DNA from: Xiphias gladius
Taxonomy: Eukaryota; Chordata; Actinopteri; Istiophoriformes; Xiphiidae
Length of the DNA stretch: 64,000 bases
Assembly (NCBI RefSeq): GCF_016859285.1
Contig: NC_053422.1
Span: 21,989,501 to 22,053,500 of the forward strand
Direction of reading: 5' to 3'
This document shows, one piece after another, positions 19,001 through 64,000 of the stretch. A program made the translations under genes and the position numbers. Numbering within the stretch: position 1 is the first letter of the stretch; the number at the start of each line of letters is the position of its first letter. A model generated the notes under the pieces. It did not search any database. It had not been told where the DNA came from and saw nothing but the letters and a program-made list of their open reading frames with translations.

Positions 19001-21979
19001 ACAATGGTTGTTGTGATGAAGAGTCTTTTCTTTGGGAAGTCATCAATGAGAAAGACGAGGGAGAAACAGATCGCCCCTCTCAGGCCACCGTAGGCAATGA
19101 TGAACTGATCTCTAAAGGTCACGGCATTCCTCCGGAGCTTGTTCACCACAGCAGTCAGCAACAGAACACCTCGAGAAGGAAGGGAAATATGTTGAACCCT
19201 CCATTTTGACAACTTTTTATCAAGCTTCTTGCCAGAGAATCATTGGTACAATGGCAGACAGGAAAGATTTTTAAAGTTACCTGTGGCCCTCCATACGAGG
19301 CAGAGCAGCAGTGTGGAGCAGACAAAGGGCCAGCTCCACATATGGACGTCCTGTATCGTGGACACCCCCAGGAAGATGAAGATTAAGGTTTCACTCACGC
19401 TGCTCCACATCTTCAGGAAGTACTGGATGCTGGTCTTGCTGCGCTCTGACACATTAGCCTCCACATACTGTTTCATGGTGACGGCGCAGGTCACAATGCT
19501 ACAGGAAGGGGAAGAAACAAAACCTATAAGACAAAAAAACATATTTTACCAAATAAAACATTTACAAAAGGAGGTGTTTGAGTTTACGTTAATCCTCAGC
19601 AGCACTCACGCCATGATACCAGAGAGGTGAAGCATCTCTGAGGTCAGGTAGGACAAGTAGGAGTAGAGGAAGACAAAGAGCGGGGCGATGACCTGGGCTC
19701 TGGAGGTGAACCGTGAGGTGAGGGCCGCCACCAGGCCAAAGAAGAGCCCTACACACAGGCCACCGAGGCCCACCATCACCACCCTGCACCCACCCAGCAA
19801 CACATCCAGTCCTGACACTGATGGTAGGCGGAGGAAGGACTCAAACAGCTTGTAGAGAACCTTAGGGGAAGTAAAGTGCATTACGTACGGTAGAAAATAT
19901 TTGATTTCACACACACACACACACACACATACACATATACACCACCTCTCCCCTCACCACAGTAACAGCGTCATTGAGCAGCGACTCTCCAAACACCAAG
20001 ATGTGCAGTTGTTCGTTAACATGCATCTCCTGGAAGACAGAGAGCACGGCCACGGGGTCGACGGCAGCGATCAGAGAGCCAAACAGCAGGCAGTGAAGCA
20101 GAGAGACGTCTCCCAGAGAGCTCTGGGCCAGCACACACACACCGTACAGAGACAGGCCGATGCCCAGCACGTTCCATAAGGTTCCCAGCACTGCATACCT
20201 GGAAACATGTCGCCAATATAACTCTTAAATTTTCCTTTGAATCTGCCTCACTTGGCCACAGCGCAACAACCTGTAAACACGACACTGACATATCATCCCC
20301 TTATAGAGCTGATGCGGAGAACCAGCTGTTGGCAAACAGTTGTAACGGTGCTGGCCATAAAACCAAAACAATGAGCTGCAAGAAGTCAAAACTGAGGGAA
20401 GTCAGCAGGCCAGGCGGTAGGTAAACACAACAGTGCTTTTAACTAGATGCTAATGTCAGCATGCTGCTATGTTCATAACGACAATGTTAAGCAAGAATAA
20501 TATTTACCATGTTCACCCTTTTAGTTTAGTGTGTTAAGATGCTAACATTTGCTAATTAGGACTAAACACAGCTGATGGTGATGGGAATATCATTTTGTTC
20601 TTTTAACTTCTTGTTTCAGGGCTTAAATTATGCCAAATAAATTGAATGGAAAATGAGAGATGGGTTGTGCATTTAAAATACAATTTATATATATTTCCCT
20701 TTAATATAGACATATTTGGCACATTTTAAAACTTGATAATCCAAACTGGAGAATTGGATTTTCTATTTAAAACAAAACTCTGTCTTATAATATGTGTTTA
20801 AAAGATTAAAGAAAAGTGTCTTTCCAAAACCAGAGTGTATTCAACAGTGTTTGCACACAGAAGATTAAAACAAACAAAAAAGTTAAACACTGAAAGTGTA
20901 CTAACCAGAGGATGGTACCGAGATTTTCAAAGAACAGCCTCCCTGGCAGGAAGTATCCCGCATCCAAGACGATTGGCGGGAGCAGAAAGAGGAAGAAGGC
21001 ATCAGCGCTGAGAGTCGGGGGAGCGGAGTGACGAACACCATATATCACACCTCCCACCAGGAGCCCCACCATGATGAGGAGACAGCTCTCTGGGACGACT
21101 GCAGGAAGTCGACCAGACCAGTGGAAACCTGAGGGGTTGAGACGGAGAGAAGAAAAAGATAAAAGGACATCCCAATAGTGACTTAACAGTGTTAAAAGTA
21201 GAACTCCATCAACAGAGCGCTACTCTCATACACATCACACACATGCAAATTCTTAAAATGAATGCTTGTGTTGGTTTTACAGTGTCCAAAAACAAAAAAG
21301 ATCTCAAAAATATTTGGGAACAATTACAGAGAGAGAAAGTGAAAGTCAGAAATTCAGAAAACCACTGATGGTGGTATATGCTCCACTTCTCTTTAAAATC
21401 TGGAACACAGAAATTCTCTTCTATTGTTTATTTGATATGAACAAACTGGATTTTAATATGTACTTTCCCTCATGCCTTTATATTTCATATATGTACAGAA
21501 GTAACCAGAAAGTAACTGAAATTTATGTCACTTAGTTTGGTCAATAACTTGAATTATATTATGATAAAGTAGTCAATAAAGTAACTTTTATTAACATTCC
21601 TGACACTGAATGTATGTCACCTTCTGCAACTCTGAGCCCCATATTTCCAGTTTCATTTCAAACCTATAATAACATCTAACCACAAGTTACATCCAGTCAA
21701 AAGCTGGCTTCTCGTGTATGAGTAAAAGTAAAGCTCAGGCTTACCCAGTTTGGCCAGTGAGGCCAGCATGATCCACAGCACGATCTCAAAGGGTGCCTGC
21801 ACATGGTTGTAGTCCACGCTGAAAACCCTCAGAGGCACGGGCAGATCCACAGACAGGCCGCCATCGCTGCTGTTGAAGCCCAGTGAGGGGAGGTGGTTGT
21901 AAGGCTGAGGGAGCTCGGCAGGGGGGGTCAGGCCCAAACATCCCAACAGACAGGCAGAGAGCAGCAGAGAGAGAGCCAT
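16051..21979 (-). CDS. slc9a2: Sodium/hydrogen exchanger 2-type (SLC9A2/NHE2), 13 coding exons, 713 aa
   Basis: An electroneutral Na+/H+ antiporter of the plasma-membrane NHE group; in fish, NHE2 acts in apical ion and acid transport. Coding exons, minus strand: 21979-21745, 21128-20906, 20198-19958, 19860-19610, 19498-19281, 19169-18973, 18832-18743, 18210-18140, 17952-17818, 17480-17384, 17198-17070, 16639-16576 and 16241-16051. All have GT/AG, and the phases add up to 714 codons with the stop. The start ATG precedes a hydrophobic segment ([16 protein letters not shown]), a likely cleaved signal. Conserved parts in order: [19 protein letters not shown] (about 59-77); [26 protein letters not shown]; the ion-site segment FGESLLND (222-229); [25 protein letters not shown] (416-422); [17 protein letters not shown]; then the cytosolic regulatory part with GIEDVVG and [13 protein letters not shown]. 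The last three exons (Ser/Arg-rich [24 protein letters not shown]; tail ending in VLENEKQQ) are less conserved and rest mainly on phase and splice signals. Residues mix NHE1- and NHE2-like features. Linkage to tmem182 matches human 2q12 (SLC9A4-SLC9A2-MFSD9-TMEM182), so SLC9A2/4 orthology is likely but unproven. Confidence 0.9.
20400..20620 (-). repeat. GCTAACATGCTAACA-type interspersed repeat, second copy
   Basis: It lies in slc9a2 intron 2 and is reversed relative to the 14.4 kb copy. Words shared on the opposite strand include taccatgttcac, aagatgctaacatttgct and gctgatggtgatgggaat. Boundaries are approximate. Confidence 0.6.
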
Positions 21980-24638: not shown

Positions 24639-25743
24639 TCAACATAGATGAGTATTGTCAGTCTCTGAAATCCTCAGAACAGGGGAGCTAAAGTTGGATG
24701 AGCAGGGAACTATGTTCTGGGCGCTCAGGTAACTAATCTTCTTGTCAGTTTCCCGTCCTGGTCCGTCCCCCAAACTGGCGTCCAGTGAGTCTAGCCCCTG
24801 CGGCTGGCTGATGGGCTGCGGCGGTGGCACCAGGCCGTGCAGGAGGCTGTTCCCCAGATGGGAGTTGCATCGAGCCAAGTTGTCAGTCAGGTGCTGCATG
24901 TACACCTCTTCCAGCTGTTTCTCCAGCAGCCCGTTCAGCAACGAGTTTGACATGGGCTCCAACCCTGATCCGGGCAGATCCAGGCTGATGTTCACGCTGG
25001 CCCCCATAACCAGATATCCCTGGTCTGGTATGGATGAAACAGGGCCCCCTTCTGGCTCCTGCTGGGCTGCCAATTCTGGATGACGGGGAACCTCAGAGAC
25101 AGGAGTGTTCAAACCGTGCTGGGCGAGGGTGGTTCTCGGTGGGTTGTATGAGATGCGGCCCGAGTCAGCAACCTGTAGGTCTGGATACTGTTCCAGGAGG
25201 CTGCAGTTGTCTATGCAAACCGTACAGTCAGGGTCCAGGGTGAGGGCAGGTGAACACCCGGGAATTGAGAGGCCTACGGGACCTTGACGCACCACTCTCA
25301 GTCCCTGAGCCTGGGTGGATTCTAACTCTTCCTGGTTTGGACCTGATTACAGAACGTAAACTAGTAATTTAGATTATTTCAGTTTAATTTAGTTTGGTTT
25401 GACATTTTTGCTATGTGCTATGAACTCATTAGTAAGAAGGAAGAACTTTTTATAGTAAAAGGGAAGCAAGGGTACCAGACCATGTAAAATGAGTACGTGA
25501 AACCAATGCAGTACATTAGACTTTCCATTACATCAGGCAGTTTATATGCTACAACATTTAATAAGGCTGTTTACCTGCTTCAGCTGAATCCGTCGGGTTT
25601 TCTGTAGAGCTGGAGTCGGAGTGAATATAGTTGAACGGGCCCGTACAATGAGTGCGTCTCTGCGTTTTGTGTTGGTTGGAAGCAGAGGCAAACTTTCTCT
25701 CCCCCCTGTAAAGCAGCACTCTGAGAAAACCTTCAGCCAGCAT
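24639..25743 (-). CDS. TASL-family adaptor (TLR adaptor interacting with SLC15A4), 2 exons, 290 aa
   Basis: TASL (CXorf21) sits on endolysosomes bound to the transporter SLC15A4 and recruits IRF5 downstream of TLR7/8/9. Exon 1 is 25743-25575 and exon 2 is 25342-24639; the junction is phase 1 with GT/AG, totalling 873 nt. The start was chosen because it gives an N-terminus of MLAEGFLRVLLY, close to human MLSEGYLSGLEY, the segment known to insert into SLC15A4. A competing frame starting 5 bases upstream lacks this. The middle contains NCSLLEQYPDLQVADSG, comparable to the human CKNYNDLQIAGG part, and LLNGLLEKQLEEVYMQHLTD, comparable to VLNEYLEQKVVELYKQYIMD. The C-terminus has SSPVLRISETDN, comparable to human TPSLHISQYSN: the IRF-recruiting pLxIS motif, with LRIS at residues 279-282. 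Here the p position is Val rather than a hydrophilic residue. Length (290 vs 301 aa) fits. Whether this is the TASL orthologue or the TASL2-type paralogue cannot be decided from the window, so I give no symbol. Confidence 0.8.
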
Positions 25744-46884: not shown

Positions 46885-48062
46885 CATAGTCAATTCTGAA
46901 AGTATTCAGACCCTTTCCCTCTTATACTTTATTTTGTTGTACGTTTAATTGTAAATGGATAAATTTGCCATTTTGTCCATCAATCTACACTCAATAATCC
47001 CAAATCACAAAGTGAGACTGTGTTTTTAGAAATTTTTGCAAATTTAATCAAAATCAAAAACTGAAATTGCTCATTTGCAAAAGCATTCAGTTCCTTAATT
47101 CAGTACTTTGTAGAAGCCCCTTTGGCAGCGGTTACAGCTTTGATTTTCTTGGCTAAGTCTCTACAAGCTTTGAACACCTAGATTTGGGCAGTTCATCCCA
47201 CTCTTCCTGGCAGATCCTCTCAAACTCTGTCAGATTGGATGGGAAACGTCTGTGAACTGTCATCTCCAGGTCTCTCCACAGATATTCTGTGGGGTTCAAG
47301 TCTGGGCTTTGGCTGGGCCACTCAAAGACCATCAGAGACTTGTCCTAAAGCCTTTCTCATAGGACCTTTCTGTATTCGGCGGCATTCAGCCTTCCATCAG
47401 TTCTGACCAGTCTCCCTGTCCCTGCTGCTGAGAAGCCCCCATAGCATGATGCTGCCACCACCATGGTTCACTGTAGGGATGGTATTAGCCAGATGAGGAG
47501 CGGAGCCTGGTGTTTGGAGACACAGTGCTTGGAGTTCTGCCCAGAAGGTTCAATTTTTGTCACATGGCTCACGTGGCTCCCGTCTACACACACTACCATA
47601 AAGGCCTGATTGATGCAGTGCTCCTGAGATGGTCATCTTTCTGGCTGGTTCTCCCATCTCTGCAGAGGAGTTCCGAAGCCCTGTTAGAGTGACCGTTGGG
47701 TTCTTGGTCACCTCACTGACCAAGGCCCTTCATGCCTCAGTTTGGCTGGACGGCAAACTCTAGGAAGAGTCCCGATGGTTCCAAACTTCTCCCATTTCAC
47801 TATCATTGAGGCCACCGTGCTCCTGGGAACACTCAAAGCTTTAGACATGGTTTTATACCCTTGCCCTGATCTATGCCTCGCCACAATTTTATCACAGAGG
47901 TCTACAGAGTTCCTTGGTCTTCATGGCTTTGTTTTTGTCCTGACATGCAGTGTGAATTGTGGGACCCTAAATGTACAGGTGTGTGTCTTTCTAAACTATG
48001 TCAAATAAATTCAGTTTGCCACAGGTGGACAACCATCTCAAGAAAAATGACCTCTAAATTTT
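46885..48062 (-). mobile_element. Decayed Tc1/mariner-family transposon
   Basis: The left end reads gaaagtattcagacccttt, the classic fish Tc1-like terminus. The transposase lies on the minus strand and is broken by stops and frame changes. A readable segment near 47.75-47.92 kb is KIVARHRSGQGYKTMSKAL followed by VPRSTVASMIVKWEKFG, matching the Tc1 helix-turn-helix DNA-binding region (compare DKIVELHKSGKGYKTISKAL). The segment near 47.40 kb matches the later catalytic part. The right terminal inverted repeat is not evident, so the element looks truncated at that end as well as inactive. Confidence 0.85.
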
Positions 48063-52868: not shown

Positions 52869-55800
52869 TTAGACTAGTCCAGTCTGTGTGTGCAGGTGTA
52901 AGGGGTAAGGTTGGTAAAGCAGAGTTGATCCCCCTTGGGGTATATAGTAGCTGCAGTAGCTGGGTTCTGCTAGATAGGGGGCACTGTGCTCGGCAAGGTA
53001 GGGGGCAGGCTGGTAGAAGCATGTCACATGATCTGTGTTGGGGATAATGTTCTGCTCTCCTAGAACCTTCAGTGCCAGTACTGTTATCATATTCAGCGTC
53101 TGACGCCTCTCATGTCCCATCAGACACACTGTGCTGTCATCTACCACACGACGCAATGTCATCAGGTACTGGTACTTGCTTCTTTCCTCGCCGATGAAGT
53201 GGTTCTTCAAGTAGGACAGGATCTTCCTCTGCTGCTCCTGCACATCAGGGAAATCGATGAAAAAGCGCGAGCACATATAGCGCTCCAGTGTCTTTATCTG
53301 AGTCTCGCTGGCTGGTCGGTAGTCCCTAACCAACAGGTTGCTGTATTTCAACAAGCCACCACCTCGAATCTCCTCGGGGTTCCTGGTAGCAATTAGGCGG
53401 TAGCGCAAGTGGTCCATGGCTGCCTCAAAGTCACCATACATGCTCTCTGCCAGGACCTCGACGACAGGGACCGAGCCAGATGACCAAGGAACACTGCTCT
53501 GTTCAGGCATGTCTGGGGTTACCTTAGGGGTGTCTTCGTTTTCAGGCAAGGAGCTGGATACCTGATCAGCTTTTGGAGGGGCAGATTCCCCTGGGGCTCC
53601 AGACTGAGAGCGAGGCAGCACATGTGAGGTGGAGCTTGGGATTGTGATTGGAAAAGTGACAGGCTCTGCAATCCGAGGCAACGGTGAGATATAATCTTGT
53701 TCCTTTTTATCCTCCAACTGTAGGAGGGGAACTCGTGGCGGAGGGGAGGACTCTTTAATCTGTTCCTCGCCGTCTGTGTTCAGTATCATAGGCTCCATGT
53801 CTGAAGATACCTGAGGTACTAGGTCCTCTGACTCCACCGGTGGAGTGAGGCAGAGGAGGGGAGGGCTGAGGCAAGGGGACGGTGGAGTAAGACAGAGTGG
53901 AGGAGGGCTAAGGCTGAGCATAGGAGGAGTGAGGTAAGGAGGTGAGCTGAGGCAGGATGAGGTAGGGCTGAAACTCAGAGTTGGAGAGCTATAGCTAGCG
54001 AGGCTGACTGTGCTCGGCAGCGGAGATGAGAGACAATGAGAGGGAGGGGTCAGACATTCAGGGGGGCTGAGGCTGGGGGGTGAGGGATTGAAGCAGGGAG
54101 GGGAGAGACTAAGTACTGGAGGGGTGAGACAGGAAACAGGAGGGCTTACACAGTGGGAAGAGGAGGGTGAATTGAGTGTGGTTTCTTGTAGGCTGCTGTT
54201 TGGCTGATTCAAGTCAATCTTTTTGGTCTGTTGTTCTTTGTTTTCATCCTCATGACTGAGCTCAACTTCTGAGGCATGTACAGGTTCTAAGGTGTTTGAG
54301 CTGGATGTATCAGTCTGTGAAACTAACGTGTCAACTGAGTCTAGAGGCTCTGATTTTTTGGGTGTAGAGACAGTTTCTCTAGGCAAGGACTGGCTTTGCT
54401 CATCAATACCCACATCTGTAGATGGGGTCTCTTTTAGGCTCTGAATACCTGTTTCACATGAACCCTCTTTGATTAGCTCAGAGAATGATGGCTCTTGAGG
54501 TAAACACATGGGATCCACGGCAGAAGTGAATGCTATATCATGGGCTTGATCAGGAGCTGAGGTAAGGTCTAGGTTTGAAGCTAAGTTACTGGAAGGGTTG
54601 GGTTTGGGCCCAGGGTTTGTTTTAGTAGAGATACTGGTTGTTGTGCTAGTTGCAGGGTCTGAACTGGGAGCTGTTGTCTTTGAGTTAAAGGCTATCTCAG
54701 GTTCAGGGCTGGGGCAGGGGTTTGGATCTAGACAGGGCACTATGACAGGTTCACTTTCAGAGACTGGACTGGGGTAAGGACCGGGGGTGACCTTCCTACA
54801 CATCCTCCGAGGGGGTTTGGGAGAGGAGTGTTTGAGCACCACCATGTGGGATAGTCTATCTGAGGCCTTACAAGAGGGAGAAGAGGAGGTCCTTTTGTCA
54901 GAAACAAGGCTGGGTGGTGCAGGTAAAATATCCTGAGTATCTGGAGGGCTGACGGTATCAAGTATGTTAGGTGATTTTTCTGAGTTATCTGTGTGTACTG
55001 TGCTGTGACCCTCCAGTGTATCCTGTGTGCCAGTAAGCTGTGTGTTGTGAAATGTAAGAGATATGGAAGAGGTCGACAGGGAACAATCAATACCCTGTGT
55101 GTTTTCTATGTTTTTTGCTTCTGATGCTAAAATCTCTTCTGTCATTTCACATGTTTCTGAGTCATTTTCCCTCTCTGCTTGTATCTGCTCCCCTGTCTCT
55201 GTCTCTACTTTTCTTTCATCTGCCAATCGTGACTCTATCTTAGCATGTGGAGATGTGATAGTGTCTGGAGCAGACACATGTTGTGTTTTATCTTTCTCAT
55301 TGCTTCTTTGATCCTCATTGAAACCCTTAGAGAAGTCTGTTTTATCAGAGTGCTCGGTAGTGTGTGATTCTTCTGCCAGGTTTAAAGACTCTGTCTTGGT
55401 TTTTTCTGAGGTTTTTGGCCACTCTCCCATCTGGTCTGTGAGATCTTTCCGTTCATCAGGGGGTTTTCCATTGTTAGGCGGTTCTTTCTGGACAGAGAGT
55501 TCCTTGTGATTTGAATGTGCTGGTTGTTGGCCATCACAGGGTTGGGTCTGCTCTAACTGTTCTACCTTCGTTGAGTATTTGGTCTTGTCTGAGAGCTCTG
55601 GCTCATGTCTGAGTTCAATCTGAGTTGGTGTTTCAGTTTTCTCAAAGGTTTGTTTCCTTTCTGACAAACAATTTAGAGATGTCTGATCAGAGAAGTCTGC
55701 CTCTTTTAAGCTTTCTCTGTGTTCTGACACTTCTTTCAGCTCTTGAGTTGTTTTCTCTTCATTGTCTTTTTCCACTTTGGAGTGCTTTGTCTGATTTGAA

Positions 55801-57000
55801 TGTTCAGTTTGTTGTGAAACGTCTGTCTGCGACTCCTTTTCATGCACCTCATCTCTCCGCATCTGGCTGATCTGAGCCCCTTCTTTACTGGATGAGTCTC
55901 TACCAGTGAACCTCTCTGTTTCTGGAGCAGTGGCCTGTTTGAGCAGAGAGGGAGAATCTTTATTCTGATTCTCTGCAGGCTGATCCTTAAGATCAACGGT
56001 ATTATCTATGTTCTGTGACTCCTGCTGAATGTAGGACTGCAGGAGACGATCAAGAATGATCTGGAAGGAGTCGACACTGAACTCAAACTGCCTCCTCAAT
56101 GCGCTCACAAATTTGAGCTCCAGATTTTTTCCACTGTTGTTTGAGAGGGAGATGAGGCTCCAGCGGTCATGTTCATTGAAGACCTTGACCATTTTCTGGA
56201 CGTATGCCTCCTTCATTGTTGCGCTGCTGATCCGCTCCCTGTTGACCCCGGCAGGTAGGCAGTCCAGCAAGCAGCCCAGCACTGACTCTTTGATTACCTG
56301 AGAGAAGAAGACGTCAGCAACATGACAGCTAAAACTAATGACTGCAAGTTAAGTGCAATTTTGCCTTTATTATTGAATTGAATATTGTGATGCTCCTGTG
56401 GTTTAGTTTTCTGTCTAATGCAGTTAAGAATATTAAAATCAGTACTATTGATTCAGCCTTATGGTAAAATGTTCTACAATTAAATTATTGTTAGGATTAC
56501 AATAACATCATTATCAATATAGCTCCACAAAAATCAATACTGCAACACCCCAGAGATGGTAGATATTTAGTCCGATGCTTAAGGATAATACAGGAGAATG
56601 AATGCTGGTTAACGCATGGGATTGAACCCCAATGCTCACCTCTTATTACACTGACCTGCTTCCTTTTTTTAACTAAGCAGTACACTAATCGTACCTGGAA
56701 CTCCTCCTGACTGGGCAGCTCCACTCCAAAGATGATGTCCAGGTCCTTGTAGCTTGTTCCATTGTCTCGGACAAGGACATGGCTGGCCGTGGAGCCGTTC
56801 AGACGAACATCTCTTACAGTGATTCCCTGCTTCTGCAGCCTGGCCCGCACAGCTATGATGATGTCTCGAGGACGCAGCTCCAACGTGGGAAAGTTCCCGC
56901 GTCCGTGGATTGGAACCACCTCCGACAGAACCTGATGGAGAACCTCCACCTGCTCAGCATTCAGGCTGTGGAACCGCTGGCTGGATCTGGTTTCAGACAT
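52869..57000 (-). CDS. tent5d: TENT5/FAM46 non-canonical poly(A) polymerase with giant internal insertion, about 1,244 aa
   Basis: TENT5 enzymes add poly(A) to selected mRNAs, many encoding secreted proteins. Two coding exons: 57000-56695 (102 codons, from [10 protein letters not shown], just after an acceptor ttcag) and 56297-52869 (1,143 codons with stop), joined at phase 0 with GT/AG. A 5' UTR exon probably ends at the donor near 59551. Core motifs: GS at 69-70, DLD (86-88, catalytic acids in YKDLDIIF), [31 protein letters not shown] (third acid, D178); later [14 protein letters not shown] (from about 1053), [48 protein letters not shown] and the terminal [13 protein letters not shown]. 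Between about residues 192 and 1045 lies roughly 855 aa of low-complexity sequence, where family members have about 20. The family is normally about 390 aa. The insertion is in frame, in one exon, with no stop. The choice of D over A/B/C rests on linkage with sh3bgrl, hmgn and chmp1b (human Xq21.1). Core residues read equally like TENT5C. Confidence 0.9.
53160..55740 (-). other. Low-complexity insertion inside the TENT5 catalytic domain
   Basis: This segment of the large exon encodes two kinds of disordered sequence; the insertion proper is about 53.47-56.03 kb. The N-terminal part (about residues 195-560) is charged and hydrophilic, with irregular repeats of an xSDKTxxS or HSNxTKHS type. The C-terminal part (about residues 800-925, bases 53830-54190) is rich in Pro, Ser, Leu and Cys, with recurrent LTPPxLSLSPP and CLTPP/CLSPP words. 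Between them is an S/T/P-rich stretch ([19 protein letters not shown]). No domain is recognised. The frame stays open for more than 2.5 kb despite biased composition, which argues that it is translated. Confidence 0.75.
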
Positions 57001-61728: not shown

Positions 61729-63920
61729 ATGTCGAACATGGAGAGTATCCTTTTCTGTTTGGTTTAACGTGCATAACGGCAGATACGGTTACCCAGCAGT
61801 AGCGGTGGCTAGCCAGATCTCCGCTGGGTTTTGGTAGCTAACCCTGTCATGCAGTAGCTTGTAACTTCTGCCCAGTCATTCGCCGATGAAGGAAAATAAG
61901 GACCGGTTAGCTAGCTCGCCTAATAAGTTTGACAACTTTTTGGTTTAATTGGAAATTGTTTAGGAAAAACAGTTCGTCTTGTCTGCACTGAGTTGGGTTG
62001 AATTAGCTGAACGTCTTAAGGTGCTTCAGTATATATTCAGCGAATATTATTATTATACTGCTAATTTATACAATTACTAACATAAATCATCCCTTGACTA
62101 GTCGTACAGAACACTTGTTCAACCTCAAGTTTGCTGCCAAAGAGCTACAGCGCAACTCAAAGAAATGTGACAAAGAGGAAAAGGCAGAAAAAGCTAAAGT
62201 GAAGCAGGTTGGCTTGTAAAATCGTGGAGACCAGGATCAAGGGACGAGCTTGGCTACAGTATAGCTACCCTCTGTATTATACGTGTATGTACTCCTCTTT
62301 TCTTTGTCTCTCAGGCTATCCAGAAGGGTAATGTGGAAGCAGCCAGAATCCATGCAGAGAATGCTATCCGTCAGAAGCATCAGTCCCTTAACTTATTGAG
62401 GATGAGTGCCCGTGTGGATGCTGTGGCTTCCAGGGTCCAGACGGCGGTCACTATGAACCAGGTCAGGATTGCAGGTTCATGGTCTGAAGAGGAGTTTCTG
62501 GTGTTACATAAAGCATGTAAATGAGAGCCAGTGAAAAACGTACCAAACCCCTTAACTGCAGTCACACATCAATTTTTCAAGATTACGATAATTCCATCAA
62601 GTCTCCTACAGTAAAGTGGTTGTATTGTACACTTAATTTCACTGGCATGGTCAAGATTTTAACTTCTTTTTTTAATCATGATGTTTTGGGGCATTTTCTG
62701 CCTTTGTTAGATTGTGATAGTAGGACGAGATGAATCAAGATGAGGTGGAGAGATCAACAAAGGTCCCTAGCTAGATTCAAAGCGGGGCATTGCAGCTCAT
62801 GGTCGAGGTCTTACAATGTAATTTCTGCAAAAGAGCAGACCCAGTAGCCATACACTTTATTAACCCAACCGCCTCCTGCCTCCTTGGTCAACATCTTAAG
62901 AATGGCCCCCTGTATTTACTGACAGATGGGTATGTTTATTTACCAGATATGTCACTGTGCACTCAGTTTATCAAAGTGTATATTTTGAAAACTAGATCTT
63001 AATTCAGAAGGTGAAGAGCTACAGAGTGTATCCATTTGAGGGCAAAAAGTCTTTCACTCTGTTAAAAGTCCTATACAAGAGAGACAGAGAGATTGAGAGT
63101 GATCAAAAAGCCTGGCAGATCTGCAAACAAAAAGACACCAATTACATAATGTCATTAGATGTGCTTCAGATTTAATGCTATTAGATTCCCGCTTTTAATA
63201 ATAACTTAATAGTGTCTACGGAAATTGAAGCACAGCATGAGATGGTACAGTGGAAAAACGCTTTTTAGAACCTATCTGTGATGTTGTAATACTGCTGCCT
63301 GTCTCCCAAAACATTAACACAATAGCATTAATAATAAACCCCTTTACCATAACTTTGTCAGCTCTTGGTAGATTGGTTTCGAAAAGATTGATTCTTAATC
63401 AGCATAATCTTCAAAATATAAGGGACACTTTTAGGATGAGAGGCGGTCCTGACAAAGTATCTGGTTAAAAAGCTAAAAGTGACACCTAGTGGAAATATAA
63501 GGATACAGCAGTTTAAGCTTTGCCTTGTCAACAGCCATCTCATAGTCTGACTTCAAATACCCTGATCATGTTTTGAAAACGTAAATCAGAACAGTTAAAA
63601 CAGAAGACTACAGAGGAGTCAACCCCTTATTTTATGTGTTTTTTCCACAGGTATCTAAATCCGTGTCTGGGGTGGTCAAGAGTATGGATGCTACACTGAA
63701 AAGCATGAATCTGGAAAAGGTAAAAAGTTAACCCATACACAAAGAAAGTGAAAGAAAATATGCTTACTAAGATTTTTGGAACTTTGTTTTCTGCATCCAT
63801 TTCCCTCTCCAGATCTCTGCATTAATGGACAAGTTTGAAAACCAATTTGAAACTCTTGACGTGCAGACAGCTCAGATGGAAGACACAATGGGCAACACCA
63901 CGACTCTGACAACACCTCAG
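61729..63920 (+). CDS. chmp1b: Charged multivesicular body protein 1B (CHMP1B), 5 of its exons, truncated by window edge
   Basis: An ESCRT-III subunit that polymerises on endosomal and midbody membranes and recruits VPS4 and spastin through its C-terminal MIM helix (outside the window). Exons: 61729-61744, 62110-62207, 62315-62461, 63651-63719 and 63813-63920, with consistent phase (16+98 nt closes a codon; the rest phase 0). This gives 145 residues of about 199. The first exon gives MSNME with a split Lys codon, then [12 protein letters not shown] and a basic first helix typical of [66 protein letters not shown]; and [25 protein letters not shown] distinguishes it from CHMP1A (MDDTLFQLK). 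After base 63920 a good donor (gtaaca) shows the gene continues to the right. Confidence 0.95.
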
Positions 63921-64000
63921 GTAACAAGCAGCCTTTTATCACAACAGAGAAATCCTCTTTGCACCTGCTGCTGCTTATGAGGACACTCTAACCCCAGACA

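Follow-up and report, generated by a model that had tools for sequence, protein, structure and literature searches.

Human TENT5 poly(A) polymerases are built of two conserved core domains, with the size differences among them lying in the N- and C-terminal regions; in TENT5D the C-terminal region serves FNDC3 binding and location at the endoplasmic reticulum (ER) (PMC13291444). A disordered insert is known from another terminal nucleotidyltransferase, TUT1, the palm of which contains a proline-rich segment (residues 235-304) that can be deleted with 96% of kcat/Km left (PMC5467268) and is reported to be a target of CKI, whose phosphorylation of it affects activity (PMC6232586). From fish, a Fam46d transcript has been reported from stickleback brain, a record that is silent on any insert (PMC4569571), and a search of open-licence papers yielded no report of an insert in a fish TENT5D. 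The subject of the present analysis is a tent5d gene of Xiphias gladius, contained in a stretch of 64,000 nucleotides (contig NC_053422.1 of NCBI RefSeq assembly GCF_016859285.1, positions 21,989,501 to 22,053,500 of the forward strand), here called the window. Its product is probably a TENT5D poly(A) polymerase in which the linker between the nucleotidyltransferase (NTase) and helical domains has grown into an 858-residue, largely disordered arm that would be flexible and open to modification.

The TENT5D enzyme and its insert

The gene consists of two coding exons (Table 1), the splice borders of which are plain in the sequence (donor TTCCAG/GTACGA after exon 1, acceptor CTCTCAG/GTAATC before exon 2). 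Joined, the exons encode 1,244 residues with the sole stop at the end, and the 1,142 open codons that the first-pass annotation of this DNA had read in exon 2 were confirmed. The Pfam profile PF07984 (NTP_transf_7) matches exon 2 in two stretches (371 bits, E=6.7e-111 overall) and also the exon-1 frame (120.5 bits), both over the curated cut-off of 27, in agreement with the earlier assignment of the gene to TENT5. In a PDB sequence search, the TENT5 structures 6w36, 6w3i, 8exe and 6jyj matched both halves of exon 2. The insert splits these two conserved parts and comprises residues 192-1049 by the boundaries used here, that is, 858 residues where about 855 had been estimated.

The insert is in frame and contains no stop; the other two frames of the same strand contain 31 and 69 stops and those of the opposite strand 57, 26 and 53. 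Among 500 dinucleotide shuffles of the insert (1,500 frames), the mean number of stops was 37 and the minimum 21, stop-free frames did not occur and the longest open run reached 255 codons. Three-base periodicity was determined block by block as the unevenness of base composition by codon position. Of 9 blocks of the insert, 7 showed it at p<0.05, as did 3 of the 4 blocks in the insert of a paralog on contig 17 (see below), versus 1 of 9 blocks of a non-coding control. At the level of sequence there is strong evidence that the insert is coding.

The catalytic residues of FAM46A include Gly122, Ser123, Asp139, Asp141 and Glu215 (PMC10075960). All five equivalents are retained in the window gene (G69, S70, D86, D88 and E162), and E162 precedes the insert by about 30 residues. 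The first-pass annotation had placed the linker right after the third catalytic acid; the published residue is the Glu that corresponds to E162, not the Asp of the FSVD motif. In constructs of human TENT5D, the NTase is divided from the helical domain at residue 209/210 (PMC13291444). The insert sits at this junction and not deep in the catalytic fold, by alignment with a provisional human sequence, which corrects its earlier placement inside the catalytic domain. D210 is the D of YGDF in that human sequence, and the domain cut lies about nine residues past its linker. Since the cut falls this soon after the linker, the arm would leave the protein and re-enter it near the domain junction.

Ser, Pro, Glu and Thr together account for 47% of the insert, the zones of which follow one another as given in Table 1, with the charged zone at the start, the basic patch near the middle and the S/T/P-rich zone at the end. 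Order-promoting residues make up 24% of the insert versus 40% of the core, and the charge-hydropathy rule classifies as disordered 7 of the 11 blocks of 75 residues that lie wholly within residues 226-1050. The low-complexity, disorder-like composition described for the insert by the first-pass annotation is supported by these values. For disorder there is fair support in the first part of the insert, and composition suggests it for the end. CK2-like sites number 26 in the window insert and 10 in that of the paralog, counted with a general pattern and no shuffled control. Single SH3-like and 14-3-3-like patterns occur in the inserts, and the PPxY, nuclear-localisation, FFAT-like, LIR and LxxLL patterns, in general forms as well, are absent from both.

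No Pfam domain other than NTP_transf_7 was detected in exon 2 at E values up to 10, no tandem repeat was reported inside the insert and no relatives were found in viral contigs. A second copy in the genome was not found either: DNA 53470-56020 and two protein pieces (the first 381 and a further 358 residues) match only themselves, in searches that score the best candidates only and that covered the last about 120 residues of the insert as DNA only. A transposon or a copied gene fragment as the source of the insert is rejected on the single copy seen in these best-candidate searches, the silence of Pfam at E up to 10 and the want of a reported tandem repeat. An assembly artefact is unlikely, since the separate locus on contig 17 has the same kind of insert.

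TENT5 genes of the genome and the contig-17 paralog

A search of the genome with the PF07984 profile gave 14 exon matches, two of which run over one stop, at seven genes. Five of the genes have the ordinary short linker; only the window gene and the contig-17 paralog have a long insert, at the same point. The five comprise a TENT5C-like gene on C16, TENT5A-like genes on C22 (at 7.4 Mb) and C4, and TENT5B-like genes on C22 (at 13.6 Mb) and C24, the last represented by its second exon alone. The TENT5A label rests on the provisional human sequence in the tree, and the B and C labels are our assignments from features of the family.

A maximum-likelihood tree with nine rows pairs the window gene with the contig-17 paralog (support 94/92) and groups both with human TENT5D (99/98); the human rows, TENT5A and TENT5D, are provisional sequences, and no human B or C row was included. 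The tail of the window gene, PLHxHxQTGLV, is of the D type and resembles that of the provisional human TENT5D. This C-terminal tail also contains a duplication spanning 16 residues (52962-53009, minus strand) that is not present in the contig-17 sister or in the other rows of the alignment. The place of the coding intron varies in the family: EEFQ/VIKE in the window gene, [LV]TLK/EAYV in the A-like pair and IVQ/VVRA in the B-like gene on C22, with no coding intron in the contig-17 sister and the gene on C16. Searched against the genome, the window intron matched only itself.

The contig-17 paralog (C17 18,733,236-18,735,557, plus strand) consists of one open frame that encodes 785 residues, or 773 when counted from the second of two neighbouring Met codons. 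Its insert of 395 residues contains no stop; the two remaining frames of that strand have 21 and 35. Stops or broken frames in relatives, which the first-pass annotation had named as evidence against a coding insert, were thus absent from the one relative examined. The core of the paralog is well conserved except in the active site (Gly-Ser, Asp-x-Asp and Glu), where two of the five residues are changed: NGA replaces NGS (Ser to Ala) and LGLRF replaces LELKF (Glu to Gly, codon GGG). From its sequence the paralog is a probable pseudoenzyme. The cores of the two genes are 75.6% identical over aligned columns, with saturated synonymous sites (pS 0.75) and a pN of 0.146. At both loci TENT5D stands head-to-head with CHMP1B, about 5 kb away in the window, and the CHMP1B exons of the two loci match. 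This shared layout together with the synonymous saturation indicates that the duplication is old, and the two tent5d genes look like products of the teleost genome duplication. Pairs are likewise seen among the TENT5A-like and the TENT5B-like genes.

Origin of the insert and alternative explanations

A single origin of the two inserts is likely, and the insert is probably older than the duplication that separated the window gene from its sister. Shared descent is favoured because the inserts occupy the same site in sister genes; their sequences are nearly silent on the matter. The arm would have arisen once, before the tent5d copies split, and then have diverged under the loose constraint of a disordered region, probably almost beyond recognition.

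Several observations weigh against the interpretation of the insert as a largely disordered, phosphorylation-controlled arm of single origin. The charge-hydropathy rule gives order for the blocks 601-675, 826-900, 901-975 and 976-1050, the last three of which are consecutive. The enrichment of [ST]P sites in the window insert is modest (33 versus a mean of 25.8 and a maximum of 37 in 1,000 shuffles), and because the insert of the paralog is below expectation, with only 3 sites versus 6.4 expected, [ST]P phosphorylation is not common to both. Between the two inserts, the best ungapped match scores 48, which is about the shuffle mean, k-mer identity is not above chance and bias-corrected phmmer yields E=1; the value of 4e-07 from BLAST without composition correction is distrusted here. 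Such non-significant similarity, along with the want of a long insert in the five other TENT5 genes of the fish and in the provisional human TENT5D, would be compatible with inserts gained independently after the duplication at a site of TENT5D that tolerates insertions. We regard independent gain as unlikely, given that the same site is occupied in exactly two sister genes and in none of the five others, that the order of the zones is similar and that the inserts have a basic patch in common. When the most basic 12-mers of both inserts are compared, with an offset of up to 6 allowed, the patch is identical to its counterpart PSPKLQRKMSRK at 7 of 12 positions, a degree of identity reached in 4/3000 shuffles at length 12, 18/3000 at 14 and 34/3000 at 16 in this post hoc comparison. 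At length 12 the patch does not stand out by charge as such (165 and 153 of 1000), and in unrestricted tests the likeness is not significant. The arm may also have been tolerated as functionless filler, accumulated by slippage and by small insertions where a loop is free to vary in length, an explanation that is doubtful but has more than a slight chance of being correct. It would account for the low GC content at third codon positions, which in both inserts (0.43) is near that of the local non-coding DNA, in contrast to the flanking core (0.60-0.75), and for the S/T/P-type repeats and the scarcity of sequence common to both copies. It accounts less well for frames of 858 and 395 codons that have stayed open since a duplication whose synonymous sites are saturated, for the likeness of the most basic patch in both copies, a post hoc result, and for the eight [ST]PPxx[CS]L heptads, which in pooled pairwise comparison have a dN of 0.375 below a dS of 1.41, values biased by the choice of the heptads by protein pattern.

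Exitrons are stop-free, in-frame stretches within a coding exon with a length that is a multiple of three. The insert is stop-free and its length is a multiple of three, and it could, in part or as a whole, be spliced out of many transcripts to yield a shorter enzyme. Splice sites were scored with general matrices that were not trained on this genome. Within 90 nt of the ends of the insert, the donor with the highest score (3.87) is located 78 nt before the insert and the acceptor with the highest score (5.11) 74 nt after it, both in the conserved core. Singly they are no worse than the weakest real sites (donor 3.86, acceptor 3.18), but their sum of 9.0 is under that of the lowest real intron (10.8-16.4 for three TENT5 paralogs; about 10.8 to 20.3 for four introns including that of the window), and the removal of 2,726 nt would break the frame. 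The two borders therefore offer no splice sites that could be used to remove the whole insert in frame, and since the border pair is weak and frame-breaking, splicing could not plausibly restore an ordinary linker. A further point against an arm that is always translated is an internal in-frame pair at positions 1039 and 2886 of the coding sequence, with a sum (4.48 + 9.44 = 13.9) within the range of real TENT5 introns. Its use would excise 1,848 nt, or 616 residues, and still leave 242 extra residues. In the contig-17 paralog, the best in-frame pair reaches 9.3 and is located elsewhere, and one in-frame pair that nearly brackets the insert reaches 5.4. On balance, an exitron is distinctly improbable. 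The border scores make the constant removal of the segment, an outcome envisaged in the first-pass annotation, unlikely, and the internal pair leaves room for partial in-frame splicing.

Possible function of the arm

In the preferred interpretation, that of an arm grown from the linker, both ends of the arm would emerge at the hinge that joins the two lobes, because of which the core would still fold and add adenosines. During its divergence the arm would have retained its composition and perhaps one basic patch, SPKxxRxMxRK. It may serve as a tether in which the charged part and the S/T/P-rich part that follows form a landing place controlled by phosphorylation, which would set the partners of the enzyme, its half-life or its residence in granules. 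The first-pass annotation had proposed that the arm could recruit RNA, membranes or partners. The C-terminal tail would still direct the enzyme to the ER via FNDC3, as in mammals, an ER location being plausible from the D-type tail. By analogy with TUT1, the window protein would be a working polymerase equipped with a tethering arm under the control of modification.

More tentatively, teleost tent5d may be built around a disordered arm, with the work split between the copies after the genome duplication: an active enzyme with an arm of 858 residues, and a copy without catalytic residues that has retained its fold and an arm of 395 residues and acts as a scaffold or competitor, sharing partners with the active enzyme. 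In that case selection would have kept the arm and not catalysis alone. As the arm exceeds the remainder of the enzyme in length, the gene offers a natural test of how much insertion the core tolerates and of whether an arm at the hinge, instead of the tails, can steer poly(A) tailing. The apparently dead sister with a like arm would allow catalysis and arm function to be separated genetically in fish.

Genomic neighbourhood

The features of the tent5d gene and the CHMP1B gene are compiled in Table 1. For two short CHMP1B frames that were tried, there was no Pfam match. On the same strand as TENT5D, the window contains an exon of a Na+/H+ exchanger (20806-21219, minus strand; PF00999, E=2.6e-12) and a TASL-like frame (24639-25346, minus strand; PF15133, E=2.9e-07). 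Transposase remnants at 47156-47920 (minus strand) match DDE_3 under the family cut-off and have related copies beside the contig-17 gene. A comparison of the 1,687 frames of the window with 189.5 kb around the contig-17 copy revealed no synteny beyond CHMP1B. The remaining matches in that region, besides TENT5, were to transposase and to short unnamed frames, and none were to the Na+/H+ exchanger or the TASL-like frame.

Table 1. Features of the TENT5D gene and its neighbour in the window (positions are those of the window)
Feature	Position	Strand	Remarks
TENT5D coding exon 1	56695..57000	-	MSETRSS...EEFQ; G-S motif (G69, S70) and D-x-D motif (D86, D88); PF07984 positions 1-91, E=1.2e-34
TENT5D intron, 397 bp, phase 0	56298..56694	-	GT..AG; donor 7.67, acceptor 12.63 by general matrices
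TENT5D coding exon 2	52869..56297	-	1,142 codons and stop
End of NTase lobe with catalytic base E162 (LELKF)	56031..56297	-	PDB TENT5 matches; nine-sequence TENT5 alignment
Insert, 858 aa	53457..56030	-	E/K/Q/T-rich charged part, short basic patch, then S/T/P-rich part
Basic patch in insert, candidate motif	54792..54827	-	counterpart PSPKLQRKMSRK in insert of contig-17 paralog
[ST]PPxx[CS]L heptad-like repeats, residues 820-922	53838..54146	-	eight heptads picked by eye
Helical domain and D-type C-terminal tail	52872..53456	-	PF07984 positions 192-321; 76% identity to contig-17 paralog over 194 residues (tblastn)
CHMP1B gene (partial)	62007..63977	+	best match CHMP1B, E=2.8e-20; CHMP1A weaker

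Comparison with known systems

Exitrons resemble the window insert in open frame and length; the insert differs by its lack of convincing splice sites at the borders. TUT1 (TENT1, Star-PAP) is, like the window enzyme, a terminal nucleotidyltransferase whose catalytic region is interrupted by a proline-rich insert, disordered in TUT1 and probably so here. The insert of TUT1, however, comprises 70 residues, lies in the palm between beta6 and alpha6 and belongs to another TENT family. The only Pfam family listed for the window gene is PF07984, not a TUT1-type palm, and the comparison is confined to how the two inserts may work. The first-pass annotation had called the size change undescribed, which stands for a fish insert within the open-licence literature but not for inserts in this class of enzymes as a whole, in view of the TUT1 palm (PMC5467268).

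The structures of TENT5C, TENT5A and TENT5B and the complex with BCCIP-alpha are alike in that their sequences match both halves of exon 2, with the active site as described for FAM46A (PMC10075960). The gap between the matched halves is 13 residues in 6w3i and 14 in 6w36, compared with 858 here. Closest is mammalian TENT5D (FAM46D, 389 aa), which the window enzyme resembles in its NTase and helical domains, active-site residues, D-type tail and position in the tree, by comparison with the provisional human sequence. The linker of that human sequence has about 14-20 residues; a short linker is usual in the family, not a defining trait, and in this the window enzyme departs from it. What is new here is the occurrence of long inserts at one site in two of seven TENT5 genes, a variant of a known enzyme family.

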